DNA of 42,680 nucleotides, taken from contig CAMLLD010000057.1 of the NCBI GenBank assembly GCA_946480785.1, forward strand, positions 1-42,680. The letters run 5' to 3'. This document shows, in pieces, positions 15,001 to 41,793 of the stretch. The stretch comes from an uncultured Blastocatellia bacterium (GTDB lineage: Bacteria > Acidobacteriota > Blastocatellia > Pyrinomonadales > Pyrinomonadaceae). The position numbers were made by a program, and so were the translations under genes. The notes beneath the pieces are model-generated. The model ran no database searches. It was not told where the DNA came from and saw only the letters and a list, made by a program, of their open reading frames with translations. Position 1 is the stretch's first letter; the number at the start of each line of letters is the position of its first letter.

Positions 15001-18000
15001 CACCTGCGCACCTGAGTTCGCCAGCAAATAACGTAAGCGTTCCTGCGGGCAGGCTGGATCTAAAGGCACATAGGCGCCGCCGGCCTTGAGCACCGCCAGC
15101 AACGCAGCCACCAACTCGGTCGAGCGTTCCAAGAACACTGCCACCAGCGTCTCTGTTTCTACTCCGAGTGCGCGCAGTCGCTGCGCCAGTTGCTGCGCGC
15201 GCTGGTCCAACTCCCGGTAGCTGAGACGCTCAGCACCACAGCTCACTGCCTCAGCCTCCGGCGTGCGGGCCACTTGCGCTGCGAACAACTCGTGCAGGCA
15301 CGCGGTTGGGTAGCTCACCTGGATCTGATTACCCTGTTCCACTAGCTGCTGCCGTTCTGCCGTTGTTAACAGATCCAATTCCGATACTCGTCGCCACGGC
15401 TCACTGACGGCGGACTCGAGCAATTTCACGAAGTGCTCGCCCATCCGCTTGATCGTTCCCGCGTCGAACAACTCCGTGCTGTACTCCAGCGCGCCCAGCA
15501 CGCCGTCGTTCGTTTCGGCCATCGTCAGCGTTAAAAGAAATTCTGTTTCTCGTCGCTTCAAGGCGAGTGACTCGGTCTCCAGGTTGCCCAACCGCATTCG
15601 CGCTCCGGCGTGACCGAGCGCGAAACCGGCCCATTCGGTTTCGTTCAAGACATGCGCTTGCTGCCAAGCAAAGAGAACCTGAAATGGCTGTGACGGCGTG
15701 CTGTCTCTGCTGTCGCGCGCGTGCTTGACAACCAACGACAGCGGGTAGTCCTGATGCTCGATGGCCGCAAGTACCGTCCGTCGCACTTCCTGCAGTAACT
15801 CATCGAACGTTGCCTTCGCGTCGCACGTTGTTCTCAGAGGAAGAGGATTGACGAGGTAGCCAACCACGGCGGAGAAAGCTGCGCGATGACGACCTGCCGT
15901 TGGCGAGCCGACGATGATGTCGTTCTGTCCGGTATAGCGTGCGAGCAGGAGCTTGAAGACAGCGAGCAGTGTCATGTAGAGCGTCACGCTGCGCTGCTGC
16001 GCAAACGCCTTGAGTTCGGAGACGAGCTTCGCGTCGAGCTGGAAAGAGTGAGATGACGCGGCATAAGTCAGTGCAGCAGCACGCGGCCGATCGGTTGGTA
16101 TATCAAGCGACGGCGGCTCTCCCGCTAATTGCTCGCGCCAAAAATCACGGTGCCGACCACCCTCGTTACTCTCGATCATCTCCGCCTGCCAACGCACATA
16201 ATCTCCATAGCTACGTTGTAGCGGTGGCAACGGCGACGGTAAGCCCTCGGCTTCGGACGCATAGAGCACACCCAACTCATCCAACAGCAACATCAGCGAC
16301 CACAGGTCCGCGACGATGTGATGAATCGTCATCAGGAACACACTGCGGCGCGCGTCGACGGTGAAGAGGTATGTGCGCAACAGCGAGTGGTCCCCGAGAT
16401 CGAAGGTACGGTTAGCCTCTGCATTGAGCCGTTCAGTTAACGCGACTTCGTTCCATCCCGACGCATCTTCCTCGTGCAGCAAAACCTCAACGCCTTCGTG
16501 AACTACTTGCACCGGCGTGCCATTCTGTGACGAGAAAGAAGTTCGCAGTGCCGTGTGACGGTCCACCAGCTTCTGCAGTGCCCGCCGCAGGGCGCCCGCG
16601 TCCACGGTTGAGTGGATAACTACAGCACGGCTGATGTTGTAGGCGGTGTTGTCGGGCGCGAGCTGATGCAAAAACCACAGCGCCTGCTGTCCATGTGACA
16701 GCGGATACTCAAGTGCGGCGCTGATTGATGACGTGCGCGTTTCAATCGTATCCAGTTGGCGACGTAATTGCGCCGCGAGTTGGACGATGCTCTGGTTGTT
16801 GAGCAGCGCGCTGAGCGGCAGAGTTACGCTGAGTTCCGTTTCGACCCGATGCGCGAGTTCTATCGCGAGTAATGAGTCGAGACCATAACGCAGGATGGGT
16901 TTGTTGAGATCGAGCTCTGCCGGATTGATCTTCAGCGTCGCAGCTAACTCCCTGCGGAGCAAGTTCTCAATCGAATCGATATCTGGTTGCGCTGCATTAT
17001 GTGTTTCGTCCTGGCTTTCGGAAACAGATCCTGCACGCCACTCCGCGATCACGTTCAGGCTGCCTTCGAGGAACATCGCCCGACAGACGTGACGTTGAAT
17101 CTTGCCGCTCGAAGTTTTGGCGATGCTTCCCGCCCGGACTAACACGATACTGTGGGCCGCTATCTCAAACTCCTGAGTTATGCTTTCGCCGATGGCGTCG
17201 ATTGCAGCAGCCGCTTCGGCTTCGCGCCGCAACTCCAACTCTTGCACGACCACTAAACGCTCTTCGCCTGCCACCGTCACGGAAAACGCGGCGCCGCAAC
17301 CAGGGCGCAGCGCTGAATGGCAACGCTCAACATTCAACTCGATGTCCTGCGGGTAGTAATTCAGCCCGCGGATGATGATTAGATCCTTCAGTCTTCCCGT
17401 AACGAAGAGTTCTCCGTCAGCAAGAAAACCAAGATCGCCGGTGCGCAGGAAGGGACCTTCGCCGGTATCTGCGAAGTAGGCACGGAAGGTCTCTTCTGTT
17501 TGCTCTACGTTGTTCCAGTAGCCGGCAGCGACGCTCGCACTCTGCAGCCAAATCTCGCCTACTTCTCCCGGCGCGCACGTCGTTAATTGCACCGGGTTGG
17601 CAATACGGACTTGTTCATCCGGAAGCACGCGCCCGCAGCTAATTAGTGGATACTGATCTTCGCTTCCCTCAGGATCGGCGACGCGGTGCACATCGAGTGC
17701 CTTCTTCGAGACAAGCTTGATCAAAGGCGATCGCGGCTCGGGACTGCCGGAGACTATGAGCGTAGCCTCAGCCAGACCGTAACAAGGACGGAACGCTTCG
17801 CGACGAAACCCGCACAGTGCAAACTTCTCCGCAAACGCGTCGAGCGTGCCGGCGCGAATCGGCTCCGCGCCGTTGAAGGCCACTTGCCAACAACTGAGGT
17901 CAAGTGCAACGAGTTGTTCCTCGCTGATTTTTCGCACGCACAGGTCGTACGCGAAATTTGGCCCACCACTGGTCGTGGCGCGGTAACGCGAGATGGCTTG

Positions 18001-18735
18001 CAGCCAACGCAGAGGCTTTTGCAGAAAAGCCAGCGGTGACATGAGCACGCACGGCGCACCGACAAACAGCGGTTGAATGACGTTTCCGATCAGCCCCATG
18101 TCGTGATAGAGGGGCAACCAACCGACAACTACAGACTCACTGCTTTGACTGAAGGCGTGCTCGATGAGTCGTTCGTTGGCGAGGAGATTACGATGATTGA
18201 TCATCACGCCTTTTGGCGTCGTAGTGGAGCCCGATGTGTACTGCAACAGGACCAGCTCGTCTCCGCTGAGTTGCGGTGCGCGCCAACCGTCACTTTCTTC
18301 GTTGGCAATCTCGTCTGAGCAGATCCAACTGAGCCGAGCCAGGTCTGCGTCTCTCGTAATACGGGAGAGAACGTGAGTTGAAGTAAGCGCCGTCTTCGCC
18401 CGGGCATCTGTGACGAGCGTTTGCAAGCGCAGTTGATTTCGATTGTTACGCGGCGGGTACGCAGGCACAGCGACAGCCTCCGCGTAGATGCAGCCAAAGA
18501 AAGCCGCGATGTATTCCAATCCCGGTGGGTAGAGCAGCAACACGCGATCGCCCGGTGCGACTGTGCGTTGCAGTCGAGCGGCAATCGCCCGCACCCGCTG
18601 GTCCAACTGGCTCCACGAGAACGTCTCCTCTTCCTGCTCGCCGTCAGTGAGGAAGGTGTAGGCGCGACGTTCGGGCTGGTCCTGCGCCCGCTGACACAGC
18701 AGGGTGACTAGATCCCCGGCAGCGTGATGGTTCAT
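12067..18735 (-). CDS. NRPS A, loading synthetase: FAAL-ACP-C-A-PCP-E
   Basis: First synthetase of the line, 2222 aa. A fatty acyl-AMP ligase (about 1-585; core TSGSTTTPKG near 170) should adenylate a fatty acid and pass it to the adjacent ACP (GLDSL, about 618). The C domain (680-1120) carries HHIVADLWS, the variant usual in starter C domains that join an acyl chain to the first amino acid. The A domain (1135-1640) reads D-L-W-T-I-A-M-V-H, in outline closest to Thr-type pockets but not a clean match. The carrier has LGGDSI (near 1692), the form typical before epimerases. The final domain is an epimerase: HHLAVDAVSW (near 1879), ESHGRE, VGWFTTIYP and FNYLGQ. Predicted intermediate: N-acyl-D-amino acid. 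The ATG is 22 nt after the M28 stop; no clear ribosome site is visible, so coupling to the upstream gene is likely. Confidence 0.95.
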   Translation of the reverse strand: MNHHAAGDLVTLLCQRAQDQPERRAYTFLTDGEQEEETFSWSQLDQRVRAIAARLQRTVAPGDRVLLLYPPGLEYIAAFFGCIYAEAVAVPAYPPRNNRNQLRLQTLVTDARAKTALTSTHVLSRITRDADLARLSWICSDEIANEESDGWRAPQLSGDELVLLQYTSGSTTTPKGVMINHRNLLANERLIEHAFSQSSESVVVGWLPLYHDMGLIGNVIQPLFVGAPCVLMSPLAFLQKPLRWLQAISRYRATTSGGPNFAYDLCVRKISEEQLVALDLSCWQVAFNGAEPIRAGTLDAFAEKFALCGFRREAFRPCYGLAEATLIVSGSPEPRSPLIKLVSKKALDVHRVADPEGSEDQYPLISCGRVLPDEQVRIANPVQLTTCAPGEVGEIWLQSASVAAGYWNNVEQTEETFRAYFADTGEGPFLRTGDLGFLADGELFVTGRLKDLIIIRGLNYYPQDIELNVERCHSALRPGCGAAFSVTVAGEERLVVVQELELRREAEAAAAIDAIGESITQEFEIAAHSIVLVRAGSIAKTSSGKIQRHVCRAMFLEGSLNVIAEWRAGSVSESQDETHNAAQPDIDSIENLLRRELAATLKINPAELDLNKPILRYGLDSLLAIELAHRVETELSVTLPLSALLNNQSIVQLAAQLRRQLDTIETRTSSISAALEYPLSHGQQALWFLHQLAPDNTAYNISRAVVIHSTVDAGALRRALQKLVDRHTALRTSFSSQNGTPVQVVHEGVEVLLHEEDASGWNEVALTERLNAEANRTFDLGDHSLLRTYLFTVDARRSVFLMTIHHIVADLWSLMLLLDELGVLYASEAEGLPSPLPPLQRSYGDYVRWQAEMIESNEGGRHRDFWREQLAGEPPSLDIPTDRPRAAALTYAASSHSFQLDAKLVSELKAFAQQRSVTLYMTLLAVFKLLLARYTGQNDIIVGSPTAGRHRAAFSAVVGYLVNPLPLRTTCDAKATFDELLQEVRRTVLAAIEHQDYPLSLVVKHARDSRDSTPSQPFQVLFAWQQAHVLNETEWAGFALGHAGARMRLGNLETESLALKRRETEFLLTLTMAETNDGVLGALEYSTELFDAGTIKRMGEHFVKLLESAVSEPWRRVSELDLLTTAERQQLVEQGNQIQVSYPTACLHELFAAQVARTPEAEAVSCGAERLSYRELDQRAQQLAQRLRALGVETETLVAVFLERSTELVAALLAVLKAGGAYVPLDPACPQERLRYLLANSGAQVLLTDRRLADLLPEHGAKVVYVDDEQTTLPETSELPTRVDPQCLAYVIYTSGSTGEPKGVAITHANVSRLLATTETPFGFSDADVWTLFHSYAFDLSVWEMWGALAYGGRLVVAPYWVSRNPEQFLKLMDEEGVTVLTQTPSAFWPLMQAEGKTKQALKSLRLVIFAGEALEVTKLSAWFERHGDQRPTMVNMYGITETTVHSTLQVVRRDTEAGPGSQIGEPLDDLRIYILDQQQQLLPFGIWGEMHVAGAGLARAYLNRPSLTAERFVPDPFSSEPGARLYRSGDLGRRLARGGLEYLGRTDHQVKIRGFRIELGEIETALRECAGVREAAVLLRDKDERAQLVAYVVPDGEEAGGIAALRAALQQWLPDYMVPGAFVQLDQLPLTANGKLDRSALLALQPVSATAGGDQVSPRSPVEKIVAETWQQVLGVERVGIYDNFFALGGDSILSLQIVSRLSQAGFTMTPQDLFQHPTVAELSAALEHTSTAVHAEVGPVSGPVPLTSIQHWFFEQQFADAHHWNQAVMLEVREALDRAALTRAISRLLEQHDTLRLRFVHEGDGWRQFNAEPEGEIPLTIVELNGLSEAEQRRTVELAASEWQASLNLSEGPLVRAVYFEADSANASRLLLIIHHLAVDAVSWRILFEDLERVYGQAAGGLNMTFARKTTSFKRWAERLQAYSEAGDARAEAEYWLSERWLKADPLPVDSDPWSTGGAAATPNSEASAHTLQIDFGIEETDALLHKTTQVFRTRVVEMLLAALGRALWRWYGADFVLIDLESHGRESMFDGIDVSRTVGWFTTIYPVLLETGGADGDEVEVLKSVKEQLREVPHHGIGYGALRHLSKESAAAFEARPRAEVLFNYLGQLDRGLPEHAVFRFSSDSVGPVRSPRAQRSHLLEINSYIAGGRLRVEWTYSEDIHRHVTIERLSESFKNSLRALLAHTQSPELFELTPADFPMVQLSGEQLEGALAEVTFDD
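12082..12087 (-). promoter_or_regulatory. Ribosome binding site deciding the NRPS B start
   Basis: On the minus strand this reads GAGGTG and ends 7 nt before the ATG at 12072..12074. It supports that ATG over the adjacent upstream TTG (12075..12077). The site lies inside the last codons of NRPS A. Confidence 0.6.
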
Positions 18736-28801: not shown

Positions 28802-30367
28802 TCACTTAGGATGGCATTCGACACATTGAAACATCGAAATGTCGCCGAGATTGATGGGGTGTTTGAAGGGCTCGTTGGCCTTGTGGCAGGTTTCGCACTT
28901 GCGGTTCGCGAGCCCGCCGAGGTCAACCGGATGCTGAAACGGAATCGTCTGCGGAACTGTCGAAGGTCGCGCTGAATCGGACAACACGGTGTGGCAGATG
29001 TTGCAGTCGTTGCGAATCACCTTCCCGGTGTTACTCACGTGCTCGCCGTCGTGACAACGAAAACAACCTGACGAGTAGAGATGCCCGATGTTGTTTGGGT
29101 GAGTGGCCCAGTTCGTCTTCATCTCCGGGAAGAAGTAGGTCTTGAAGATGCGTTGCGTTTCGCTGATGGCGGCTTTGATCGCGTCTGTTTTTTGTCCGTA
29201 CAACTGAGTGTAGTTGGTCCGATAAAAGCCATCGAGATCGGAGGCAATCGCATTGAGCGCCTCTTGTTCGGTGCCGTAGGGTTTGTTCAATACTTCTACG
29301 GCTTTCCTTTTCAGATACGGCAGCGCCGGGTCGAGTCGTCCCGCAGAAAATGACTGGTCCAACGCTACGTCGGGTGGTAAGTACGCGTGCGCCGGACGAT
29401 TATGACAGTCCATACAATCCATGCGGCGTTTTTCGGCGGTGGCAATTTGTTCCGCAGTGAGCGGCCGCACTCGATCCACGTATTCAGTTACATTGCCGTT
29501 TTGATCCTTCACGCGAATCCACGGAATGACCTGCCGTTGCTGGTCCGTGGCGATGAACGTGATCTCATTCGCCAGATTCATGTGCCAGTGAATGCCCGCG
29601 ACTGGACCACTCGACGGATCACCGCCGCCCACATTGATCAGCATCCGCGTTTGCCGCAGCGAGTTTTGCTCGTCATAAGCGTAGTGACTGAACGTCTTGA
29701 GCTGTGTGCCATAAAACTTCGCCGGCCAATGACACTGCTCGCAAGTCTGATTCGCGGGCCGCATGTTTCGCACCGGCGTTTCGATCGGTTTTGAGTAGGT
29801 ACCGCCGATCAAGGCGAACAACTGGCGCGCGCCTGACAGTTTGGAACGAGCATACGACTCCGCGCCGTGGCCCACGTGACAATCAACACAACGGATCCGT
29901 GAGTGTGAGGTCGCGTGGAAAGCGACAAACTCAGGCTTCATCACCGTGTGGCAGGTTTGGCCGCAAAACTCGACCGACTCTGTGTACTCATAAGCGCGAT
30001 AACTGCCAAAGGCACTCGCGCAAACGAATACGAAAGAGAGACCGAGGATCGCGATCGCAAGACGACGTTGGCGAGGCTCGTTTAGATCAAGTTTTGGGTA
30101 AGGCGGGATGGCGGAATCGGGCGAGCGCCTTCTTCTGCGTCTCTCGATCAACATCCCTGCCACGATCACCAGCAGGCCCAACACGAGAAACGCCGGCAGG
30201 ATGATGTAGGTGACGATACCGAGGTAAGGATTATTCGACGCCTCCGTCAACTCGATCAGAAACAACAGCAGAATGCTTACCACCGCGGCGATGACTATCA
30301 ACGCGCCGGCGAAGCTTGCGTAGTTTCGAAAGAGTGTCGGGGACCGTCTGGCGGAGTTTTCGCTCAT
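28802..30367 (-). CDS. Membrane-anchored octahaem cytochrome c, NapC/NrfH-like
   Basis: 521 aa. Three N-terminal membrane helices (about 17-40, 48-72 and 104-121) are followed by a periplasmic part with eight haem sites. The first is CGQTC-H (CX3CH, near residue 133) and the other seven are CXXCH (CVDCH, CEQCH, CMDCH, CFRCH, CNICH, CETCH, CVECH). The first two plus the PEF...HSRIRCVDCH pattern resemble NapC/NrfH-type quinol dehydrogenases, with four extra haems further on. Predicted role: exchange of electrons between the quinone pool and periplasmic cytochromes. It starts 8 nt after the monohaem cytochrome gene, so the two form one unit. The ATG has only a weak ribosome site, consistent with coupling. 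Most likely the inner-membrane end of the multihaem chain to its right. Confidence 0.88.
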   Translation of the reverse strand: MSENSARRSPTLFRNYASFAGALIVIAAVVSILLLFLIELTEASNNPYLGIVTYIILPAFLVLGLLVIVAGMLIERRRRRRSPDSAIPPYPKLDLNEPRQRRLAIAILGLSFVFVCASAFGSYRAYEYTESVEFCGQTCHTVMKPEFVAFHATSHSRIRCVDCHVGHGAESYARSKLSGARQLFALIGGTYSKPIETPVRNMRPANQTCEQCHWPAKFYGTQLKTFSHYAYDEQNSLRQTRMLINVGGGDPSSGPVAGIHWHMNLANEITFIATDQQRQVIPWIRVKDQNGNVTEYVDRVRPLTAEQIATAEKRRMDCMDCHNRPAHAYLPPDVALDQSFSAGRLDPALPYLKRKAVEVLNKPYGTEQEALNAIASDLDGFYRTNYTQLYGQKTDAIKAAISETQRIFKTYFFPEMKTNWATHPNNIGHLYSSGCFRCHDGEHVSNTGKVIRNDCNICHTVLSDSARPSTVPQTIPFQHPVDLGGLANRKCETCHKANEPFKHPINLGDISMFQCVECHPK

Positions 30368-30375
30368 CCGGAGTC

Positions 30376-30702
30376 TCAGGGAGCCGATCTCAGTTGCTTC
30401 ATGTGGGCCAACAATGCTTTTGCCTGTTCGGCGGTCACGCCTTTCTCACCGTACGCCGGCATGTAGGGAGGCTTCTCCGGTTTCTTGCCCTTCAATATCG
30501 CCTCAACGTATTGCTCGTCGGTGAGTGAAGCGTCAAACCGCTTCTCTGCTTTTGGCCCATGACAGGCCACACACTTCGCTTTGTAGAAAGCCGCAGGGTC
30601 TGACGGCTGCGCCTCGTCCTGGGCCGAAGCGAGGCTGTAAAAGACCGCACTCGACAAGAAGATTGCGGTAAGGATTATGGTTAAGGTGTTTGCTCTTTTC
30701 AT
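30376..30702 (-). CDS. Small monohaem cytochrome c
   Basis: 108 aa. A signal peptide (MKRANTLTIILTAIFLSSAV..., likely cut after SLASAQ) is followed by one CVACH haem site and a Met (MPAY) in the position of the sixth ligand, the class I layout of small soluble c-type cytochromes. The ATG at 30702 has GGAGG a few nt upstream; an in-frame upstream ATG (30732) is ignored because it has none. Probably a periplasmic carrier between the octahaem membrane protein and the larger cytochromes of this locus. A CRP-like palindrome lies just before the ribosome site. Confidence 0.88.
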   Translation of the reverse strand: MKRANTLTIILTAIFLSSAVFYSLASAQDEAQPSDPAAFYKAKCVACHGPKAEKRFDASLTDEQYVEAILKGKKPEKPPYMPAYGEKGVTAEQAKALLAHMKQLRSAP

Positions 30703-30717
30703 CGCGCCTCCAGTAGT

Positions 30718-30733
30718 GGTGATCCGCATCACA
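30718..30733. promoter_or_regulatory. CRP-like palindrome before the monohaem cytochrome gene
   Basis: GGTGA-TCCGCA-TCACA matches the CRP consensus TGTGA-N6-TCACA at 9 of 10 arm positions. It is 15 nt upstream of the ATG, which is too close for ordinary activation of that gene from a TSS in the gap. A repressor-type role or a chance match are possible. The rest of the 135-nt gap 30703..30837 shows no gene. Confidence 0.4.
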
Positions 30734-30837
30734 TCCGTGTAAGTGCAACGTCGATGCCATCGAAAAACGGCTCAAAAACGTAACCAATCAACCTGCCGCG
30801 CGGGCTTTTGCACACCTCACTGCGGAACTTTTCACAC

Positions 30838-32592
30838 TCAGAAATGCCAGGCCGAACCCTTGTGACAACGCTTGCACGCAGAGAAGTCGTCACCACCGAA
30901 GGCGCGTTGGCCGTTATGGCAAGTCGCGCAAGCGAACGTGTTCCCCGGTGCGTGGTGATTTAGCGGCGCAGGCGCAGACACTTGCCGGCCCACCGGCAAG
31001 CCTGCCCGCACGTGATGGCACGCTGCACACGCGAGCTTCTCAGACGCATCGTGACGCGCATGACTGAATCCGACTCGATAAGCAGACGCTTGCTCGGAGG
31101 TGCGAACAAAACGTCCGAGCTGATGACACGTGCTGCACGACGAGATGTTTTTGCCGTTGGCCTGAGCGTTCGGCGTGTGACAGCCAAAACAAGTGACGTG
31201 CGCGTTCAGTTTCGCGGGAATCGACAACGCAACGCCGCCACGAGTTTGCCGATGACAAGTCACGCAACCGGCCGTTGTGTGTGTCGCGTGATCGAACTCA
31301 ACGTTGAAACTGCGCAACGGGGGAAAGGCTTTGACTTTTCCGCTCTGCACGTCTGTGTGACAGATCGTGCAGATCGGACTCGCAGTATTCGAGAATTGCT
31401 GTGCGTGACAGCCTGTGCACGGCGCATGTGCTGCTTTGCCGGGCAGAGTCGGTTGCGGTGAGTTGTTCTCGCGTCGATGACAAAGCAAGCAAGGCAACCG
31501 CGCGTGATTGCGATCGTCATGTTTGAACTGTGAGAAGTCAGTGGTTGCCGATTGCAACGCTGCATGCGCGAAGAGTATGCGTTCGCTTCCCGCGGCCGCC
31601 GCCTTCGGAATCGCGTTGACGTGACTCGCAGGCACTGGTTTGTTACCGAAGACAAGGTGGCACTTGGTGCAGACAAACGTCGCGCTCTTCTTTCTTTGGT
31701 CAATCTCGTAGTTGAGAACTCCACCGTCATCGAGTGTCGCCGTGACGTGGCAGCTTTCGCCACCGCCGCACGATTTCACCGGCACTTTCTTCGTCGCGTC
31801 GCTGGTCGTGTTCATCGCCGTGACGTTGTGACATTGAGCGCACTTCAAGTCCGTATGCGGTTCGTGTCGAAACGCGCCGGCCGAGATGCGATTGCGCGCA
31901 GCCGTGAGTGTCCACCAATCCTTCGCGCCCATCGTGGCCGCTGACTTTTCATCGAAATCTGCGGCGAGCGTTTCAGAGCCTGGTAGCTTGTGACACGCGT
32001 CGCAGCTTTGCGGCAGAGGCGCGAGCTCGCTCTCCTGGTTGTGACACGTGAAGCAACTCGCGTGAGTAAACGGTCGTGACCGAAACGTTCCCTTGGCCTG
32101 CTTTTCATATAACTTGTGGCAATCCGCGCAATCCGAATCCGCGTGTTTGTCGTGCGGGAAAAAAACGCGAAAGTCTGAAACAAAATTTGCGGCCTTCGCG
32201 GTTGCGAGAAATGCTTCGCCAAGACTCGGGAACGGATAGCGTGATGTCTCGCTCGGTGTGGCTTTCACGTGGCAGTTGGAACAGATCCGCGGAACCGGTC
32301 GCTCGCGCGCGAAGAACTGCGGTCGATGACAGTTCAAACAAGACGCGTGCTCGGGAAACTCGGCCACATCCGGAAACGCCGCGTCGCCTTTACGAACTTC
32401 CTTCCAGTTCTTAGTGGGAAACTTGTGACACGAGACGCACGCGAGTTTTTCTTTGGACACGTGCGTGGTATGAGAAAAGCTCGCGTAATCACTCGGCGTG
32501 GGGCGTTGACGCGACGGCGCGCGCCGTTGAGCCGTGGCCGGCATGACGGTCCAAACAAGAACGATCATTGCGAATGTTGTTGGTCGCAGCAC
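30838..32592 (-). CDS. Large multihaem cytochrome c (17 CXXCH plus one CX5CH)
   Basis: 584 aa with a signal peptide (MLRPTTFAMIVLVWTVMPATAQ). I count 17 canonical CXXCH sites from CVSCH to CKRCH and one extra CGGGESCH (CX5CH, first Cys at residue 275). No lipobox Cys follows the signal peptide, so a lipoprotein anchor is not indicated. The start is a GTG at 32592, 3 nt after the stop of the barrel gene; no clear ribosome site is seen, so translational coupling is likely. A later in-frame ATG would leave an unusually short signal peptide. Many His residues lie between the haem sites, as expected for bis-His ligation. It may be the outer partner of the porin-cytochrome conduit or a periplasmic electron store. 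I recognise no catalytic motif. Confidence 0.88.
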   Translation of the reverse strand: MLRPTTFAMIVLVWTVMPATAQRRAPSRQRPTPSDYASFSHTTHVSKEKLACVSCHKFPTKNWKEVRKGDAAFPDVAEFPEHASCLNCHRPQFFARERPVPRICSNCHVKATPSETSRYPFPSLGEAFLATAKAANFVSDFRVFFPHDKHADSDCADCHKLYEKQAKGTFRSRPFTHASCFTCHNQESELAPLPQSCDACHKLPGSETLAADFDEKSAATMGAKDWWTLTAARNRISAGAFRHEPHTDLKCAQCHNVTAMNTTSDATKKVPVKSCGGGESCHVTATLDDGGVLNYEIDQRKKSATFVCTKCHLVFGNKPVPASHVNAIPKAAAAGSERILFAHAALQSATTDFSQFKHDDRNHARLPCLLCHRRENNSPQPTLPGKAAHAPCTGCHAQQFSNTASPICTICHTDVQSGKVKAFPPLRSFNVEFDHATHTTAGCVTCHRQTRGGVALSIPAKLNAHVTCFGCHTPNAQANGKNISSCSTCHQLGRFVRTSEQASAYRVGFSHARHDASEKLACAACHHVRAGLPVGRQVSAPAPLNHHAPGNTFACATCHNGQRAFGGDDFSACKRCHKGSAWHF

Positions 32593-32595
32593 GCA

Positions 32596-34776
32596 CTATT
32601 CACGACGGCCGAAGTAAAGACGCAACGATGTGTAAGGCTGATGCGCGTGATAGTTCTGTGGCCGCGGTCCCACGATCGTGCTTTCGTTGTAGTTGTAGTA
32701 CTGATAGCCAATGTTCCAATCGAGCCGCTGGTGCAGCTTGATCGCGACGCGCGCTTCCGGCGATTGAAAACTCATCGGATACGAAGCGATCAGCGTGCCC
32801 GGATTGCCCGTGGGATCGGCGACTCGACTTCCCTGCCCGTTGTCCTTATTGATCCGATAAGCAGTAAAGAGGGTCACGCGCGGAGCCACACGAGCCACTG
32901 ATTCGACGAAGAAGAAATTGTTCCTGACGAAGTAAAGACTGTTGCCCAGCAGGTGCTGGACGTTATTGAAGAAATAGTCGAGCTTCGCGTTGCTGTTGAT
33001 CCAGTGGTAGTTGTAGCCGGTGCTGATCGAGAAGCGCGAGGTCGCGGTCCAGTCGAGTGACGACGAAAAGATCCTCGACTTCACGCTTACGCCAAAGTCT
33101 TCCAGCGAGACGCCGGCAATCTCCGAAGGATTCGAGTTGTTCTTCGTGATCACGGCGAGGTTGAAAGCGATTCGCGAGGTCGGCTTGTACCGGCTCTTGG
33201 CGCGAATGTTGGTGTAGTCGTAGTTGCCGATGCGCGTGAAGACGTTATCGGCGGTGCCATGCTCGGCGTCGAAATAGATGGTCCAATCGTGAAGCGGCCG
33301 GGCTTTGAAGCCGCCGAGAACAGCGTGCGTGTTGTTGTGCTCTATTTCATCCTCGGGGACGAGCGGTGTGGGCGAGTTGGAGTTGAGGGCAAACCCGCTG
33401 ATCGCTTCTTCGATGCGTCGCGCGCCGTAGCGATAACCGAGATGAAGCGAGTAGTCTTTGTTGAACTGGTAGTCGCCTTCAATCGTGTTCTGGATTTTTC
33501 GGTACTCGGTCCGGGTATCGACGTCGCGATTGCTGAACGCGATCGTGTCGGTCCGCGTGCCGCGGGTGAGTGAGAAGAAATCGGCGAACAGCGCCGCACC
33601 GTTGATCTCGAACGTTTCCACTCGGAACGTATTCGAGAGGCGCAACTTGTCGGTTGCCAGCCACGTGAGGCCGACGTCTCCCAGCCAGTTCGGCCGTTCC
33701 GTGTCGCCGCTCAGATTGTATTGGCCCAGGTTGAGAATATTTGGCGTCGCGCCCGGCGGGCTCGGCGGAAAGCCGGTGATGCGCGGGTTCCAATTGCGAC
33801 CAGTAAAACTCTCGAGCGAAACGAAGTTCTGTTTCGCCTTGCTGTAGATGATGCGCCCGGTGACGTCGAGTCGCTTTGCGATCAGCGTTTGCAAACTGAA
33901 ACGCGTGTAGTTCACGCTGCCGCGCGCCGGTTCGTTGCGATCGAAACTAGTCAAACTCGCAACCGTCGGGTTGAGATTGATTCCCGGCGTGACTCCGAGA
34001 TCGATCGCACTGTCGTCACGAAAGCGCCGAAAGCCCTGCAGGAAGGAAAAGTTCAGCGGACCGAGTTTGCCGTCGGCGCCGACGCGGAAATCATTGGCGC
34101 GCGAGCGGAGTTGCGACAGGAGCAGAAATTCGTTGCCGCCGGAGTGGTAGTTTGTGAATGCTGGTCCACTGTAACGTTCGGGCGAGTAGCCGACGTTAAA
34201 GCGAATGAAACGGTTCTTGGGGAGCAGCGTGAGATCAAAGTCTCCCAGTTTCACGCGCGTGTTGTAGCCGTGGTCGCCGGTTGTTCTCTTGGGCGCGACA
34301 TTGAACGTCGCGGGACTAAACACCCAATTCGGGTTGGCGAAGTCGTTAAGAAAGCGAAAGTACTTGAAGCGTCGATAGGTGGCATCGAAGCGATACCACT
34401 TCGATTGTTCGACACTCACGCGCAGATTGCCCTGCGGATCGGCGCCCCAGCCGGTGGAAGTGGCGAGCAGTGAATCAAAGAGACCGCCCTTGCCGTCCGA
34501 AGACTTGAGCAGGAAAGAACTGTCGAAGACTCTCGGGCCGGCCTTGTAATTCAGATCGCTTTGATACTTGTTCAGATCGCCGTCGACGCGCAGCCCGCGA
34601 TAGCCAAACTCCAGACTCGAGACGACGGTGAAGTCGCCGGCCTTTTCCCCTGTTTCCGACGGCGTCTCGGTGTACTCGGATTTGGCGGGCGAAGGTGACG
34701 GAGCAGATTGTTGAGCCGAAGTCGAACCCGCCACCAGCAACAGAAACACGACTGTGAATGTGTACAGTTTGGTCAT
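32596..34776 (-). CDS. Outer-membrane beta-barrel, MtrB/PioB-like
   Basis: 726 aa. After a signal peptide (MTKLYTFTVVFLLLVAGSTSAQ) there is a long run of alternating hydrophobic and polar residues typical of amphipathic beta strands, ending in a strand that closes with SLRLYFGRRE. I see no Cys in the protein, unlike Shewanella MtrB with its N-terminal CxxC. The gene sits 13 nt after the decahaem cytochrome gene and 3 nt before the large cytochrome gene, as in mtrCAB/pioAB-like loci. The predicted role is a sheath that holds the decahaem protein across the outer membrane. The assignment rests on barrel-like sequence plus context. GAGG precedes the ATG. Confidence 0.8.
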   Translation of the reverse strand: MTKLYTFTVVFLLLVAGSTSAQQSAPSPSPAKSEYTETPSETGEKAGDFTVVSSLEFGYRGLRVDGDLNKYQSDLNYKAGPRVFDSSFLLKSSDGKGGLFDSLLATSTGWGADPQGNLRVSVEQSKWYRFDATYRRFKYFRFLNDFANPNWVFSPATFNVAPKRTTGDHGYNTRVKLGDFDLTLLPKNRFIRFNVGYSPERYSGPAFTNYHSGGNEFLLLSQLRSRANDFRVGADGKLGPLNFSFLQGFRRFRDDSAIDLGVTPGINLNPTVASLTSFDRNEPARGSVNYTRFSLQTLIAKRLDVTGRIIYSKAKQNFVSLESFTGRNWNPRITGFPPSPPGATPNILNLGQYNLSGDTERPNWLGDVGLTWLATDKLRLSNTFRVETFEINGAALFADFFSLTRGTRTDTIAFSNRDVDTRTEYRKIQNTIEGDYQFNKDYSLHLGYRYGARRIEEAISGFALNSNSPTPLVPEDEIEHNNTHAVLGGFKARPLHDWTIYFDAEHGTADNVFTRIGNYDYTNIRAKSRYKPTSRIAFNLAVITKNNSNPSEIAGVSLEDFGVSVKSRIFSSSLDWTATSRFSISTGYNYHWINSNAKLDYFFNNVQHLLGNSLYFVRNNFFFVESVARVAPRVTLFTAYRINKDNGQGSRVADPTGNPGTLIASYPMSFQSPEARVAIKLHQRLDWNIGYQYYNYNESTIVGPRPQNYHAHQPYTSLRLYFGRRE

Positions 34777-34789
34777 GGCCCAACCTCAC

Positions 34790-35791
34790 TCAGCGGAAAA
34801 AGACAGGGCTCGTGCGCGAGCCGTGAATCTTGACGTGACAGTTCGTGCAGTTCGCATACTGCGCGTTCAAATTGTGTTGCGGACCAGCGGGCTCATCAGC
34901 GCCGACACCGTGCGCCGTGCTGTGACACGTCAAGCAAAGCTGTGCGACGCGGCTCGTAATCAACAGTCGCGGATTAGACGAACCGTGCGGCGTGTGACAC
35001 GCGATACAGCCGTCAGTCTTCACCGGCGCATGCTCGTAAACAAAAGGCCCTTGCTTATCTGCGTGACACTTGATGCAAGCAGCGTCAGCGCCCGTCGCGA
35101 GTCTCGTTTGCTTGAGTTCGAAACCGCCGTGCGGGTTGTGGCAATCGCTGCACTTCATCGCGCCTTCGAGTACCTTGTGATGAAATGGCAGGTTGAACTG
35201 GTGCTTCGTCTCAGCGTGGCAACTCAGACAAAGCTGCGGTTCGCTCACCTTAAGCATTTTGATATCGGAGAAACCCGGCTTTTGCGCATTCGCTCGTGAG
35301 ACAAACACATTCGAAGCCGCGAGTTGACGTCCGCTCGGTTGTGAGTGTGGCGAGTGGCAATCGGTGCAACCGATGTCGTTGCGCCAGTGCTCGCCGCGGC
35401 GGAAGTTGTTGTGCTCTTCCCTGCCCGAGTGACAGGCCAGACACGTCTCCGAGATCTCTTTCGAGGACTTGTTCTTGAACGAGATGATCTTCTTCGGATC
35501 GCCTTCTTCACTGTGAGCTTTGCCTGGACCATGACACGACTCGCAACCCGTCACCTTCTCCTTCCAACTGGCGAGCGAAGTGAGCTCGGCGTGTGAAGTA
35601 TGCGAGAAGGCTTTGAACTGATCTTCGTGGCAGTCTTTGCAAGCAGCGCTGCCGACGTACTCTTCAGACTTGTAGGTGGCGGGTTTGGTCTGATCGGGTG
35701 GAACGGAGTGCGACGAAGTGCGCGAAGTCAACCAACCCACAGCCGCGACCAATATGGCACAGACGAGGAATGCTTTGATGAGTTTATACAA
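34790..35791 (-). CDS. Decahaem cytochrome c, MtrA/DmsE family
   Basis: 333 aa with an N-terminal hydrophobic signal segment (MYKLIKAFLVCAILVAAVGWL). Ten CXXCH sites are visible: CKDCH, CESCH, CLACH, CTDCH, CLSCH, CSDCH, CIKCH, CIACH, CLTCH and CTNCH. Length, haem number and the CxxCHxPHG-type repeats fit the MtrA/DmsE/PioA group that sits inside an outer-membrane porin. The start codon is TTG at 35791, supported by GGAGG 9 nt upstream. First gene of the cytochrome series, 97 nt after a Crp-type regulator gene and about 86 nt downstream of a CRP-like palindrome. Confidence 0.9.
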   Translation of the reverse strand: MYKLIKAFLVCAILVAAVGWLTSRTSSHSVPPDQTKPATYKSEEYVGSAACKDCHEDQFKAFSHTSHAELTSLASWKEKVTGCESCHGPGKAHSEEGDPKKIISFKNKSSKEISETCLACHSGREEHNNFRRGEHWRNDIGCTDCHSPHSQPSGRQLAASNVFVSRANAQKPGFSDIKMLKVSEPQLCLSCHAETKHQFNLPFHHKVLEGAMKCSDCHNPHGGFELKQTRLATGADAACIKCHADKQGPFVYEHAPVKTDGCIACHTPHGSSNPRLLITSRVAQLCLTCHSTAHGVGADEPAGPQHNLNAQYANCTNCHVKIHGSRTSPVFFR

Positions 35792-35877: not shown

Positions 35878-35893
35878 TGTGACGACCGTCACG
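35878..35893. promoter_or_regulatory. CRP-like palindrome before the decahaem cytochrome gene
   Basis: TGTGA-CGACCG-TCACG matches TGTGA-N6-TCACA at 9 of 10 arm positions; the inner GTGACG...CGTCAC arms are perfect. It overlaps the stop codon of the Crp-type gene and lies 86 nt before the cytochrome start, a workable place for an activator site. The neighbouring regulator has the RETVTR helix expected to bind it. Confidence 0.5.
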
Positions 35894-36599
35894 TTCCTTC
35901 CGCGATGTGCTCCAACGCGCAGCGATTACAAATCAAAATGCTGTCGGTGGTGACGCGAATCACCTGCTGCTTAGTCAGACTTGCCAGGAGACGTGTGACT
36001 GTCTCGCGCGACGAACAGATCATTTGCGCGATCTCTTCGTGAGTAAGCACGCGATCCACACGCGCTGTCGCCGAACCATTTTCCTTGCTCCATTCAAGCA
36101 ACAGCTTTGCTAAACGGCCGTTTACTGTATGGGGCAGGAGCAATGCTTTCGCGCGCTCGGTGAGCTCACTCAGCTCGCGGCTCAACAGTTCTGAGATCGT
36201 CGAGGCTATCGCATGGCTCTGGTCCTGGAGCTCGATCAATTCCGAGCGAGCGAGGAAATCCGTGCGACAGGGTTCGAGTGTCTTGACCGTCGTATCGTAA
36301 GGACGATTCTGCAGCACTGAGTTCAAACCCAGCACATCACCGGGTTGCGCCAGACGCAGCATGATGACTCTTCCTTCACGCGAGGAGATCGAAACGGTGG
36401 CTCGGCCCGTTCGCAGTATGTACAGACCACGGGCGGGCTCACCCTCGGCGAACAGGACTTTACCGCGACCGTGCAACGAATTCAAATTCCCGTTGTTCGA
36501 GGGGCGAAGCGCGCGCAAGATCGACGGGAGATCAGCGCGCTGTTCGTCTAGCGGTATAACTAACGGCTCTTCAATTTCTCTGTGTTGTGCGCTTGGCAT
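35889..36599 (-). CDS. Crp/Fnr family regulator with CRP-type recognition helix
   Basis: 236 aa. An N-terminal sensor beta-roll (about 40-140: GKVLFAEGEPARGLYILRTGRATV) is followed by a dimer helix and a winged helix-turn-helix with THEEIAQMICSSRETVTRLL. The RETVTR stretch aligns with R180, E181 and R185 of E. coli CRP, the residues that read TGTGA. The N-terminal part has no Cys cluster, so an FNR-type Fe-S sensor is unlikely; the ligand is unknown. It lies directly upstream of the decahaem gene on the same strand, so it is the natural candidate to control the cytochrome locus. ATG with GGAG 9 nt upstream. Confidence 0.88.
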   Translation of the reverse strand: MPSAQHREIEEPLVIPLDEQRADLPSILRALRPSNNGNLNSLHGRGKVLFAEGEPARGLYILRTGRATVSISSREGRVIMLRLAQPGDVLGLNSVLQNRPYDTTVKTLEPCRTDFLARSELIELQDQSHAIASTISELLSRELSELTERAKALLLPHTVNGRLAKLLLEWSKENGSATARVDRVLTHEEIAQMICSSRETVTRLLASLTKQQVIRVTTDSILICNRCALEHIAEGT

Positions 36600-36726: not shown

Positions 36727-38667
36727 TCAAGTCTGCGAGGGATTCCCCACCGTGTCCTTACCGAAGTGTTGCTGGAACAGTTTTGCGGCCGCATCGAGGA
36801 AGTCGTAAGACGTGACGATACCAACCAACTGATCGCCTTCAACGACGGGCAAACAGCCGACGCGATTGCTGCGCATGATCTCGATCGCTTCCAGCGAGGA
36901 CGTGGAAGGACAAACCGTCAACGGATTGCGCACCATGACCTGCCGCACCGTGATGGGTTCGCTTTCAAGAGAGCGGTTTCCGTTGCTGACCATGCGCAGC
37001 AAACCACGGTGAGTTACCAGTCCCACCAACCGCCCTTCCTGATCTTCGACGGGCACATGCCTGATGTGTCGCCAGTCCATCACACTCGCCGCCAGATCGA
37101 TCAAGTCGTCGGGCTTGACCGTGAAAAGATCCGTCGACATGAACTGACCGACCATGCGATAGCCGTGTTCCCATTCTTCAGACTCCGCGCTTTCGCCGAG
37201 GGGCCAACAATGGATCGGCTCGCCTTCTTTCTGGTTTGTCAGCATCGCAGCGGTGAGTCTTCTTCGGCCAGCGTCTTTAGCAGCGGAGTTTCCGTTGGCG
37301 GAAAGCGACTGCATGATCCACCGCGCGCCGGTTTGGCCGCTTCGTGTTCGTTCCTCGATGATGCCGAGATACTTGTCCACGTCATCACTCGCTACGTGCG
37401 AACTGGTCAAACCCTCGCGCGCGAGCGGAACCAACTCGTCGAGGATCAGCGATCGCGCGTTGAGACTCCGTCCGTCAAGCCACTGAAACTGAGCATCGAG
37501 CCCATGTCTCGCAGCGCGGAAAAAGTTCAGCTTCGCATCGTCAAACAACATGCGCTGCGACATCTGGCCGTGCACGTGCGGCAGCGCCACCATCAAGCCC
37601 GTGAAGAACGCGGCATTCGCAATCTCATCGACGATTGTTGGTCCGGAAGGCAGCGCGCGGTTCTCGATCCGCAAATGCGCGACACCGTCACTCACGCCAT
37701 AGCAGGCGCGGTTCCAGCGCCACACGGTTCCGTTGTGCATGCGCAACGCGGAGAGTGAAGGCATCTCACCACGCGCGAGAACGGCGAACGGATTCTCGTC
37801 CGGCGCCGAAATCATGATGGGACGAAAACGAACGACCTGGTCCTGAAAGAGTTCGAGCACAGAGTTCTCCAGCCAGCGGTCGCCGAAGTTGACGCGCGTT
37901 GGTTGGTTGCGCGCCATTTGCGGCCGCGAACGCTCGTCCGTTGAATGCTGAAATAGCGCGACTCGAGTTTCCTGCCAGAGGCGTTGACCAAATAACAGCG
38001 GTGAATTGACGGCTGCGGCCAACACCGGCGCGGTGATCGCCTGCGCGACGTTGTAATGATTCGCGAACTCCGCGGCGTTGCTCTGGAAATGAACCTGGAA
38101 ACTGGTGTTGCACGATTCCATCATGATGTTGTCGTGCGTCAGGTGCAGCTCGTCCAGGCCTTTGATATGAATCGAAAGCGGGCCGCCACGCAGCCCGATC
38201 ACACCACGATCTAATTCGTGATAGCGTGCGACCGGAGTCAGATTGTCCAGAGTCAAATCTGATTTCTGCAGCGTCGGCAGGATGCCCGCGAGCAGAACAT
38301 CGGCGCCCTGAGTTGCGGCACTGGTTCGCGCGAGCTCGACCACTTCGACAAGCTCTCGTTCCATGCGGCTGAAACAATTCTGCTCGAGTTTGAGCGGTGT
38401 GAGGTTGGCTTCGAGATTGAAGCGGGCGATCTCAGTGGTTAACCGCGCATCCTTGGCATGATCGAGAATCGCCAAAGAAACCGGAGCAGGTCGCAGATGT
38501 CGATCGATCAAAAACATCTCCTGCTCCGCTCCGATTCGCGTGACGCCGCGCTCGATGCAACCACTCTCGATCATGCAAGCGAGCGCGCTCAAGTCTTCCA
38601 ACAGCGCCCGCATGAACGCCTGCGACTTCTTCTCATCGACGTGCTGTGTGACGTTATGTTCTCCCAT
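36727..38667 (-). CDS. GCS2-like carboxylate-amine ligase fused to two CBS domains
   Basis: 646 aa. The N-terminal part (about 10-400) resembles the glutamate-cysteine ligase family 2 fold (IGAEQEMFLIDRHLRP, RFNLEANLTP, ESCNTSFQVHFQ). The C-terminal part (about 505-635) is a CBS pair (GQFMSTDLFTVKPDDLI ... VRQVMVRNPLTVCP ... VVEGDQLVGIVTSYDFLD), usually a sensor of adenine nucleotides. The likely role is ATP-dependent ligation of an amine to a carboxylate under energy-state control; the substrate cannot be read from sequence. The frame is open to 38772, but I chose the ATG at 38667, 14 nt after the preceding stop with AGGTG just upstream; the longer form would overlap that gene by about 90 bp. 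Last gene of the five-gene operon. Confidence 0.85.
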   Translation of the reverse strand: MGEHNVTQHVDEKKSQAFMRALLEDLSALACMIESGCIERGVTRIGAEQEMFLIDRHLRPAPVSLAILDHAKDARLTTEIARFNLEANLTPLKLEQNCFSRMERELVEVVELARTSAATQGADVLLAGILPTLQKSDLTLDNLTPVARYHELDRGVIGLRGGPLSIHIKGLDELHLTHDNIMMESCNTSFQVHFQSNAAEFANHYNVAQAITAPVLAAAVNSPLLFGQRLWQETRVALFQHSTDERSRPQMARNQPTRVNFGDRWLENSVLELFQDQVVRFRPIMISAPDENPFAVLARGEMPSLSALRMHNGTVWRWNRACYGVSDGVAHLRIENRALPSGPTIVDEIANAAFFTGLMVALPHVHGQMSQRMLFDDAKLNFFRAARHGLDAQFQWLDGRSLNARSLILDELVPLAREGLTSSHVASDDVDKYLGIIEERTRSGQTGARWIMQSLSANGNSAAKDAGRRRLTAAMLTNQKEGEPIHCWPLGESAESEEWEHGYRMVGQFMSTDLFTVKPDDLIDLAASVMDWRHIRHVPVEDQEGRLVGLVTHRGLLRMVSNGNRSLESEPITVRQVMVRNPLTVCPSTSSLEAIEIMRSNRVGCLPVVEGDQLVGIVTSYDFLDAAAKLFQQHFGKDTVGNPSQT

Positions 38668-38681
38668 CGCACCTAAACTTG

Positions 38682-39587
38682 CTAAGACAATGACTGCGCG
38701 GCGGCACTGATTGCCTCCCGGTTCGTGATCGTAACCGCCGGTCGCAACGGGCGTGCAACCAACACCGGACACGGCGCCTGGCGTAGCACGCGATCGACAT
38801 TCGATCCAAACAGCGCGCGCATTCCGAACCCGGCGCCGTGCGCACCCACACTGATCAAGTCGATATCGTTACTCTCCGCGTAGTTGAGAATTTCGCGATA
38901 AGGATGTCCTTCTCTCACGGCCGTCTTTACGTCGCACCAGAGATGAACCTCGGCCGGCACCACCCGTTGCAGCCGGCGAGCGGCGTTGTGATAGGCGGAT
39001 TCACCCGCAATCGGATACCAGGCGATCTCCGGATCGCTGACCGAGTTCGGCGGCAAGACGTGGAGCAGATGCAATTCCGCCTGATGCTCCTGCGCGATCG
39101 ACAACGCATACTTCAGACCGAGCTCGGAATGATCGGAGAAGTCATACGCGACGAGAATACGTTTCAGATTCACGCGCAATTCATCGTTTACAAACTCACG
39201 CTGATCGTGATGCATCACCAGCACCGGACACGGAGCGTTTCGGCAAACTGATTCCGCCGTGGAACCCAGCAACGCCGCACGATGCGGCCGGCGTCGCGAG
39301 CGCATCACAATCAGGTCGGCATTAGCAGCCTGGGCCTGGGCGATGATCTCCTCATCGACGTCCTGCGCGGGCGCGATGACAAAACGCCATCCGGAATCAG
39401 AAGGCTGGATGTATTCCGCTACGGATGTTGTCAGGTTGTATTCAGCGTGACCGTATACGTCGTTGGTGCAGTGCAACAAGATCAGTTCCGCCTGTTGAGC
39501 GCGCGACAGCGCCAACGCATAACGCACCGCTTCCGTGGAGTGTGGCGACAAGTCAGTCGGACAAAGAATGCGTTTGATATCAATCAT
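38682..39587 (-). CDS. Tandem universal stress protein (two UspA domains)
   Basis: 301 aa with two UspA domains. The first starts at MIDIKRILCPTDLSPHS and the second near residue 150 at KRILVAYDFSDHSELG. The ends of both carry the nucleotide-binding glycine region (MRSRRRPHRAALLGSTAES, then GAHGAGFGMRALFGSNVD). The frame is open upstream to 39764, but the ATG at 39587 begins at the usual Usp N-terminus and lies 5 nt after the dehydrogenase stop, so it is preferred. Such tandem proteins respond to starvation, redox or hypoxic stress in other bacteria. It shares an operon with another Usp and redox enzymes. Confidence 0.9.
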   Translation of the reverse strand: MIDIKRILCPTDLSPHSTEAVRYALALSRAQQAELILLHCTNDVYGHAEYNLTTSVAEYIQPSDSGWRFVIAPAQDVDEEIIAQAQAANADLIVMRSRRRPHRAALLGSTAESVCRNAPCPVLVMHHDQREFVNDELRVNLKRILVAYDFSDHSELGLKYALSIAQEHQAELHLLHVLPPNSVSDPEIAWYPIAGESAYHNAARRLQRVVPAEVHLWCDVKTAVREGHPYREILNYAESNDIDLISVGAHGAGFGMRALFGSNVDRVLRQAPCPVLVARPLRPAVTITNREAISAAAQSLS

Positions 39588-40665: not shown

Positions 40666-41793
40666 TTACGAATGCGAGTGTTCCCAATACCGCTGCTGGA
40701 CGCGCTTGGCCCAACTCCAGAAGCGATTCTGTCTGACGGTGGCCGGCTCGTCTGTCCAAAGATGCTTTCGCAGGTAAAGACCGTCGCCACCGACTTCCTC
40801 GATCACAAACCTCATTTCGTGCTGATACTGCGTGACGGGTTCGTGTCCTTCGATTGTCGCCGCGAGGTTCGCCGCCGCAACCTCAGCCTGACGCACTGCC
40901 ATGTGGCCCATCTTTGGTCCGTCGAAGTTCACGCAATCACCAACGGCGTAAAGTCGTTCGTGACCGAGGACACGCATCGTCGCATCGACGTTGATGTAGC
41001 CTTCCGGGTTCGTGATGCCCACGTATGAGGCGGCGGAAGATCCGCGGAATGGCGGCACGAGCATCAGCAGGTTGTAATTGATTCGATCTCCGCTGCTCGT
41101 GATAGCTGAGTTCTCTGTGAGCGATTCAATGCTCAGGTTTGGTAGAAACTCTATTTCATGGTGGGCGAGTGCTTTCCTGATTATGGTAGCCGCAGTCGCG
41201 TCGCCCAACTCCGATTCCAGCGTGCACGGGCTGACTATCGTTATTCTGACGTTCTTGCGTTGGCCCTTCTCTTCCAGCAGGCGTGCCAGAGCAAACGCGC
41301 TTTCGTAAACGGGAACAGGCAAACGCGCGCCGGGGCATTGACCAAACACGGCTCGTCCTTCTTTGAACGTCTTGATGGCGTTACCGAATTTGATCGCTTT
41401 ATCGACACTCAAAAGATGTTGCGCGTGTTCGTAAAAGCCATGAATGCGTTCGGTTGCCAACCGGCGACCAAGCGCAAAAACGAGGTAGTCGTAGCCGAGC
41501 TTTCCTTCGACTTCACCATGCGCGATGGTTACGGTTCTTTCGAATGGATCGATACGCGCGACCTCGGCTTCGATGAAGTTGATGCGCCGGTTCAACATGG
41601 CATTCCGCAGGTCAAAGGAAACGTCCTCCGGCTCGCATTTGCCGAACGCGAGCCTGACCAGCGCCGGATAGAAAACGAAATTCCTGCTGCGCGACACGAG
41701 CGTGATTTGATGCTCGTCGCTGAGCTGCGCGGCCAGACGCTCAGCCGTTACCACGCCAGCAAACCCGCCTCCGAGGATGAGTACTCTCGCCAT
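40666..41793 (-). CDS. FAD-dependent oxidoreductase, NDH-2/sulfide:quinone reductase-like
   Basis: 375 aa. An N-terminal FAD motif (LILGGGFAGVVTAERL), the ESAFALARLLEEKG region and a C-terminal FAD motif (LYAVGDCVNFDGPKMGHMA) are typical of single-subunit NADH:quinone and sulfide:quinone oxidoreductases. Cys residues are at about 52 (FGKCEPED), 152 (GQCPGA), 188 (SPCTLES) and 292 (GDC), but they do not fall in an obvious SQR trio, so NADH or another donor is as likely. The amphipathic tail (FWSWAKRVQQRYW) could hold it at the membrane. It begins 2 nt after the upstream Usp stop. It could feed electrons to the quinone pool used by the cytochrome locus, which is inference from context only. Confidence 0.85.
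   Translation of the reverse strand: MARVLILGGGFAGVVTAERLAAQLSDEHQITLVSRSRNFVFYPALVRLAFGKCEPEDVSFDLRNAMLNRRINFIEAEVARIDPFERTVTIAHGEVEGKLGYDYLVFALGRRLATERIHGFYEHAQHLLSVDKAIKFGNAIKTFKEGRAVFGQCPGARLPVPVYESAFALARLLEEKGQRKNVRITIVSPCTLESELGDATAATIIRKALAHHEIEFLPNLSIESLTENSAITSSGDRINYNLLMLVPPFRGSSAASYVGITNPEGYINVDATMRVLGHERLYAVGDCVNFDGPKMGHMAVRQAEVAAANLAATIEGHEPVTQYQHEMRFVIEEVGGDGLYLRKHLWTDEPATVRQNRFWSWAKRVQQRYWEHSHS

Follow-up and report, generated by a model that had tools for sequence, protein, structure and literature searches.

Among described systems, those closest to the locus analysed here are the MtrCAB conduit of Shewanella, known from a solved complex (6r2q), the GSU1996-type polymers of c7 cytochromes ('nanowires of hemes') of Geobacter, and the Geobacter cytochromes ImcH and CbcL. 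The locus lies in a 42,680-nt stretch of contig CAMLLD010000057.1 (the window) from an uncultured Blastocatellia bacterium of the family Pyrinomonadaceae, and comprises five open reading frames (ORFs) on the minus strand: a decahaem cytochrome, a cysteine-free barrel protein, a large cytochrome (C17), a monohaem cytochrome (C1) and an octahaem ImcH-like protein. It shares the MtrAB core with the Shewanella system, but it lacks MtrC/OmcA, has a barrel that shares no more than 12% identity with MtrB in the structural alignment, and adds a fused 17-haem wire and the ImcH-like protein. GSU1996 (3ov0) is described as a periplasmic protein of four triheme domains (PMC10138318). C17 resembles it in having many c7-like haem groups per chain, but is fused from two proteins, carries 17 CX2CH motifs and one CX5CH motif, and lies inside an MtrAB cluster.

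Published marks of ImcH are three N-terminal helices, a CX3CH motif beside them and five to nine CX2CH motifs (PMC6295460). The octahaem protein of the window has hydrophobic stretches at residues 20-38, 55-73 and 103-121, a CX3CH motif at 135 and then seven CX2CH motifs, so that its earlier label, NapC/NrfH-like, is sharpened to ImcH-like on the basis of these features. The protein is 53-78% identical to nine relatives, and several relatives of the cluster also have a CbcL-like protein. Unlike imcH of Geobacter, its gene shares a cluster with mtrAB-type genes, a linkage that differs from a published survey, where no mtrAB or mtoAB is given as adjacent to imcH (PMC6295460). This linkage was counted in those 29 of the 68 barrel genomes whose best barrel match reaches E 1e-70 or lower, the 39 weaker ones being excluded; in 23 of the 29 the ImcH-like gene lies within 20 kb of the barrel gene.

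For Acidobacteriota, MtrCAB has been reported from five Acidobacteriia (Baker et al. 2022, PMC8805035), and a porin-cytochrome conduit has been reported from Holophaga (PMC7399161) and found to be expressed in a Holophaga (PMC11748539). A wastewater study that included Pyrinomonadaceae reports multihaem proteins in all its metagenome-assembled genomes (MAGs) (PMC8100337), and the main text of a machine prediction of outer-membrane multihaem cytochromes, by term search, does not name Acidobacteriota (PMC11475568). No literature on this gene set or on any Pyrinomonadaceae electron conduit was found in open-licence PubMed Central, which covers few subscription journals and no preprints.

We read the five genes as one trans-envelope electron conduit, most likely directed outward, with C17 most likely at the outer end in the place of MtrC (probability about 0.55). 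The conduit itself, which is real and conserved, is the firm part of this reading; the outer position of C17 stands near even odds, only somewhat ahead of a periplasmic one. In the proposed path, the ImcH-like protein, judging from its family, would oxidise quinol in the inner membrane, and the electrons would be transferred across the periplasm, perhaps via C1, to the decahaem MtrA-type protein, which is expected to sit inside the MtrB-type barrel of the outer membrane. C17 would then act as a protein wire of c7-like haem groups that replaces MtrC and feeds an extracellular acceptor, and a neighbouring CRP-family regulator would control the set.

The five ORFs are separated by gaps of 13, 3, 105 and 8 nt and carry 35 CX2CH motifs and one CX3CH motif, 36 in total, in addition to one CX5CH motif. 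Both the placement of the ORFs on one strand and this motif count agree with the sequence-only reading, and the recount was identical. Shuffling brought the mean number of CX2CH motifs in the three large cytochromes down to 0.10, 0.15 and 0.02; the motif density is therefore not due to chance. The decahaem protein scores 236.7 bits against TIGR03508, above the curated cut-off of 192.2, matches chain 6r2q_A with an E-value of 2.7e-31, and has a hydrophobic stretch at residues 4-22 that, by hydropathy, is a putative export signal. The best alignment of the predicted barrel model is to MtrB, although PF11854 gave no match to the window's barrel up to E 1 and matched 6 of the 19 rows of alignment A5 (best 7.8e-8). 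The 726-aa protein is thus MtrB-like by predicted fold and by context, and is not a PF11854 member.

Each of the 17 genome loci found to have the barrel comes from a MAG of Acidobacteriota, with Pyrinomonadaceae as the title in 11 cases, and the named barrel relatives among the matches listed are Pyrinomonadaceae MAGs (81-94% identical). In relatives, two separate genes, named 8h and 9h here, correspond to the two halves of C17. The order decahaem gene, barrel, 8h, 9h, a four-haem gene (4h), C1 and ImcH-like gene is that of L002, L004 and L043 (the last with extra genes); in distant relatives (e.g. L011, L013, L014 and L044) the decahaem-barrel pair and the 8h-9h-C1-ImcH group lie on opposite strands. 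At the 16 loci around 8h, 9h was always adjacent and the barrel always on the same contig; an ImcH-like gene was present in 14, and the two loci without it (L051 and L058) have a CbcL-like gene. Among 396 sampled Acidobacteriota genomes, 20 have 8h (E 1e-40), every one of them together with the barrel; 68 have the barrel (E 1e-20, with the weaker hits spanning the model only in part) and 172 an ImcH-like protein (E 1e-60). The earlier proposal of an MtrAB-type conduit in an acidobacterium is thus supported by the taxonomy of the relatives, the conserved order and the barrel model; loss of the order in relatives, which had been named as its refutation, did not occur.

Judged by alignment, C17 is a fusion of two cytochromes that are encoded by separate genes in relatives. 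The junction lies at about positions 31543-31602, where the signal sequence of 9h is absent. The sequence-only reading had counted 17 haem sites correctly and missed the fused nature of the protein, the probable role of its CX5CH motif as a haem site of altered spacing and the CRP-type site described below. The best 120 of 1844 database relatives carry 17 CX2CH motifs in 50 cases, 16 in 2, 15 in 55, 14 in 5 and 8-13 in 8; the length limit of this search excludes separate 9h proteins, so no ratio of fused to separate forms follows from it. An origin of the 17-haem protein by frameshift or assembly artefact was rejected, since so many relatives have 17 or 16 motifs. The 15-motif forms look like fusions without motifs 7-9 of the first half, as read from the sequence and alignment of one protein (P0178) and from BLAST ranges for the remaining ones.

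The locus L075, with a barrel (cut), 8h, 9h, C1 and an ImcH-like gene whose product is 83% identical to that of the window, has 8h and 9h ORFs that overlap by four bases, and looks like the state before fusion. For the 9h part, a tree of 134 rows was made by a quick method and has many weak branches. It left out those of the 120 database proteins that have 8-13 motifs or fewer than 220 residues of this part, and any separate 9h protein whose motif count differs from nine. Two changes between the separate and fused states are needed on this tree, so the fusion arose once or twice. C17 matches were found in 54 of 119 genomes of the family of genome G002, which is titled Pyrinomonadaceae. Fused genes hidden among these genomes were rejected, because in the match listing each half has a match of its own, and the two junctions read directly, those of L003 and L008, contain stops; open frames of up to 882 aa over 8h and 9h were set aside on account of stops between the genes.

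The CX5CH motif shares alignment columns with a CX2CH motif of distant 8h orthologues (alignment A2). Of 25 orthologues, 14 have nine CX2CH and no CX5CH, eight have CX5CH, one each has CX6CH (L052) and CX4CH (L058), and L054 is unresolved; the motif is kept in all 31 fused proteins examined, C17 included. A chance motif was rejected on these three grounds. The site probably binds haem, which would give C17 18 haems; a search of open-licence PubMed Central for CX5CH returned no paper.

The best solved relative of C17 is the dodecahaem c7 polymer 3ov0 (E 1.7e-11, profile A7), and the match spans profile positions 386-596, the C-terminal half. PF14522 finds four stretches on C17 (106.8 bits). The whole chain might be built of c7-like haem triplets, which fits the loss of motifs three at a time and the presence of 15-motif 9h proteins in L011, L049 and L057.

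C17 is not a member of the MtrC family, with no match to TIGR03507 (MtrC/OmcA) at E 0.01, and could be at most a functional stand-in. TIGR03507 detected MtrC/OmcA in 62 of the 396 Acidobacteriota genomes (57 above the family cut-off), a positive control for the search of the 119 family genomes, in which it found none at E 1e-30; this is not proof of absence. The 8h half of C17 and MtrC exclude each other in the sample: MtrC/OmcA is present in none of the 20 genomes with 8h and in 28 of the 48 barrel genomes without it (Fisher p 1.8e-6, uncorrected for kinship; 27 of the 28 are above the family cut-off and G109 is below). Five acidobacterial MtrCAB loci (L060, L061, L066, L068 and L069), whose genomes are outside the 20 with 8h, resemble the window in having the barrel (5/5), the decahaem partner (4/5), an ImcH-like gene (4/5) and a CbcL-like gene (4/5), and differ in having a true MtrC (451-504 bits). 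We take the exclusion as replacement of MtrC, though both traits may simply follow the species tree. Our tentative proposal is that an unrelated c7-type wire took the place of MtrC in the MtrAB-ImcH conduit of Pyrinomonadaceae and related groups, initially as a pair of proteins and later as one fused chain of 18 sites, under its own CRP-family regulator; if so, the outer end of an Mtr-type conduit would have been built in a second way.

None of the five proteins has a lipobox in its first 45 residues, by a simple pattern. The sequence-only reading took this to set the outer partner apart from MtrC, which is a weak argument. The five MtrC/OmcA proteins examined from barrel loci of other Acidobacteriota lack a Cys ahead of the haem region, and a missing lipobox is therefore no argument against an outer role. 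Among 25 9h proteins, 12 have a lipobox-like Cys by pattern; nine of these, all in distant relatives (L011, L014, L047-L051, L053 and L057), have it at the end of the hydrophobic stretch, and three (L002, L043 and L054) have it inside the stretch and are doubtful.

A gene of a CRP-family regulator lies next to the decahaem gene on its upstream side, and the helix SRETVTRLL of the regulator resembles the recognition helix of E. coli CRP. A perfect TGTGAN6TCACA precedes the decahaem gene in 16 of 26 related upstream regions; in L048, L050 and L051 the perfect site is at the start of the ORF, and L057 has one there with one mismatch. The 33 loci scanned, 557,906 bases in all, contain 40 perfect sites, where 0.53 would be expected if base use were equal. 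Of the 40, 20 are at the decahaem gene start, 12 immediately precede separate 8h genes (L011, L013, L014, L044-L046, L048-L051, L053 and L057) and eight are elsewhere, two of them inside 8h. Not all of these sites are independent, as L012 and L015 come from one MAG and L048, L050, L051 and L053 look alike. The best FNR-type site before the decahaem gene had at least three mismatches, and a near-site at window position 30718 was set aside as being at chance level by estimate. The adjacent regulator probably controls the conduit set, the sites being observed and the binding predicted. In Shewanella, CRP is reported to bind the omcA and mtrC promoter regions (PMC4417206), so that CRP control of Mtr-type genes is not new in principle.

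It is possible, with odds a little short of even, that the conduit is the same and C17 is a periplasmic wire between the ImcH-like and decahaem proteins, with the decahaem protein or another surface cytochrome meeting the acceptor, an arrangement known from systems that have MtrAB homologues and lack MtrC. Its kinship with the periplasmic GSU1996 would fit such a location, as would the separate operon formed by 8h-9h-C1-ImcH in distant relatives. The complementary distribution with MtrC is better explained by replacement, and the lipobox-like Cys of nine of the 25 9h relatives also points outward, though lipoproteins may face the periplasm too.

Several observations weigh against an outer C17 or against the wider reading, and the first three also fit a periplasmic C17. 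C17 has no lipobox, nor have the 9h proteins of close relatives a convincing one. A paralogous 8h-9h pair (29-31% identical to 8h; L071-L074, i.e. G002:C2, G389:C8, G007:C24 and G358:C6) has no MtrAB in the stretch fetched, and such wires therefore need not work at the outer membrane. Of the 68 barrel genomes, 20 have neither 8h nor MtrC, and an outer partner is thus no strict requirement. The absence of MtrC and the presence of 8h may both track the species tree, two loci (L006 and L017) have the barrel and C1 without 8h/9h between them, and Foldseek ranked two siderophore receptors above MtrB by E-value for the barrel model. The AlphaFold2 model of C17 is unusable (pLDDT 34.8), and the genome is represented here by the 42,680-nt stretch only. 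As to regulation, the window's site is one mismatch off the consensus, and six loci (L001, L002, L004, L008, L056 and L058) have neither site nor regulator.

Returning to the outward conduit with C17 at its outer end, its direction is most likely outward by analogy, the one argument being the tie of ImcH homologues to quinol oxidation. Inward or two-way flow, in which Fe(II) or another cell would feed MtrAB and C17 and then C1 and the respiratory chain, is unlikely. It would suit C1, a class I-type monohaem cytochrome, as such cytochromes often serve oxidases. Further, PioAB runs inward and MtoAB has been proposed to do so (PMC8805035), homologues of CbcL/MtrH/MtoC, one of which the relatives carry, are reported from Fe(III) reducers as well as from Fe(II) oxidisers (PMC6295460), and Acidobacteriota were newly listed among the phyla of potential electroautotrophs (PMC12575090). 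Set against this, ImcH homologues have so far been tied, in the survey, only to quinol oxidation (PMC6295460).

A very improbable explanation is that there is no conduit to minerals or cells; the decahaem protein would then work with the barrel for a terminal reductase of DmsEF type that acts on a soluble acceptor, and the other cytochromes would be carriers or stores. The decahaem protein does pass the DmsE-family model and the window encodes no MtrC, but no molybdenum reductase was found among the window genes searched or the chosen neighbours in relatives, many neighbours being unsearched. In addition, barrel and MtrC lie within 15 kb of each other in 27 of the 28 genomes with both; barrels of this family therefore go with MtrC elsewhere.

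Pyrinomonadaceae are common in soils. If the conduit operates as proposed, it provides a gene set with which electron exchange of soil Acidobacteriota with minerals or between cells can be tested, and such conduits would escape screens based on MtrC. The separate forms, the fused form of 17+1 motifs and the fused 15-motif form make up a natural series of wire lengths.

Table 1. Conduit genes, their parts and the associated regulatory features, in window coordinates.
Feature	Position	Strand	Evidence
Decahaem MtrA/DmsE-family cytochrome, 333 aa, TTG start	34790..35791	-	TIGR03508; 6r2q_A; 10 CX2CH
Cys-free MtrB-type barrel, 726 aa, no haem motif	32596..34776	-	
C17, 584 aa, 17 CX2CH and one CX5CH, fusion of 8h and 9h	30838..32592	-	alignments; motif count; 3ov0 profile match
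C17 N-terminal part, residues 1-330, equivalent to separate 8h gene	31603..32592	-	alignment A2
C17 C-terminal part, residues 351-584, equivalent to separate 9h gene minus signal sequence	30838..31542	-	alignment A3
CX5CH (CGGGESCH), C17 residues 275-282, probable haem site	31747..31770	-	column match to CX2CH in orthologues
C1, monohaem class I-type cytochrome c, 118 aa	30376..30732	-	PF13442, 39.7 bits (cut-off 27); 1 CX2CH
ImcH-like inner-membrane octahaem cytochrome, 521 aa	28802..30367	-	PF03264, 33.5 bits (cut-off 24.1); CX3CH and 7 CX2CH
CRP-family regulator, likely regulator of the set	35889..36599	-	PF00027 and PF13545 above cut-offs; helix SRETVTRLL
CRP-type palindrome TGTGACGACCGTCACG, 86 nt before decahaem gene	35878..35893	.	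one mismatch from TGTGAN6TCACA

The start of C1 is either the GTG at 30732 or, alternatively, an ATG at 30729 or 30702, as judged from the translation. The loci L006 and L075 come from one MAG (G006), which thus has two conduit clusters; their ImcH-like proteins share 67% and 83% identity, respectively, with that of the window, and the bin either has a second copy or is mixed. In L072-L074 the paralogous 8h-9h set has an added four-haem gene, beside which an HbpS-like protein of about 720 aa is encoded in L072 and L073; L073 also has an FHA-domain seven-haem protein and a cNMP-binding iron-sulphur protein as neighbours. In or near the conduit cluster of L043, a cytochrome b gene (identified by Pfam in this locus only) lies beside that of a nine-haem cytochrome (L043:10855-13291), a pair that we take to recall the CbcBA type of Geobacter; neighbours of like size occur in L005, L047, L052, L054, L056, L059 and L077, and none in the window. 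In L044 (10957-14847), ResB and cytochrome c assembly genes (Pfam, this locus only) are divergent from 8h across the promoter with the CRP site, and genes of like size occur in other distant loci; they are apparently tied to the conduit as a maturation set.

Elsewhere in the window, the product of positions 36727-38772 combines CBS domains with a GCS2 region like that of glutamate-cysteine ligase, and its relatives are encoded close to the conduit in 6 of 17 barrel loci and 4 of 16 8h loci. Positions 3201-18735 hold two large nonribosomal peptide synthetase genes, the first (2958 aa) with a C-terminal TauD-like domain and the second (2222 aa) with an N-terminal region similar to fatty acyl-AMP ligases. 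A flavoprotein (40666-41793) that is distantly similar to type III sulphide:quinone reductase (161.5 bits, below the cut-off of 525) belongs to a gene run that also holds Usp and Zn-alcohol dehydrogenase genes.

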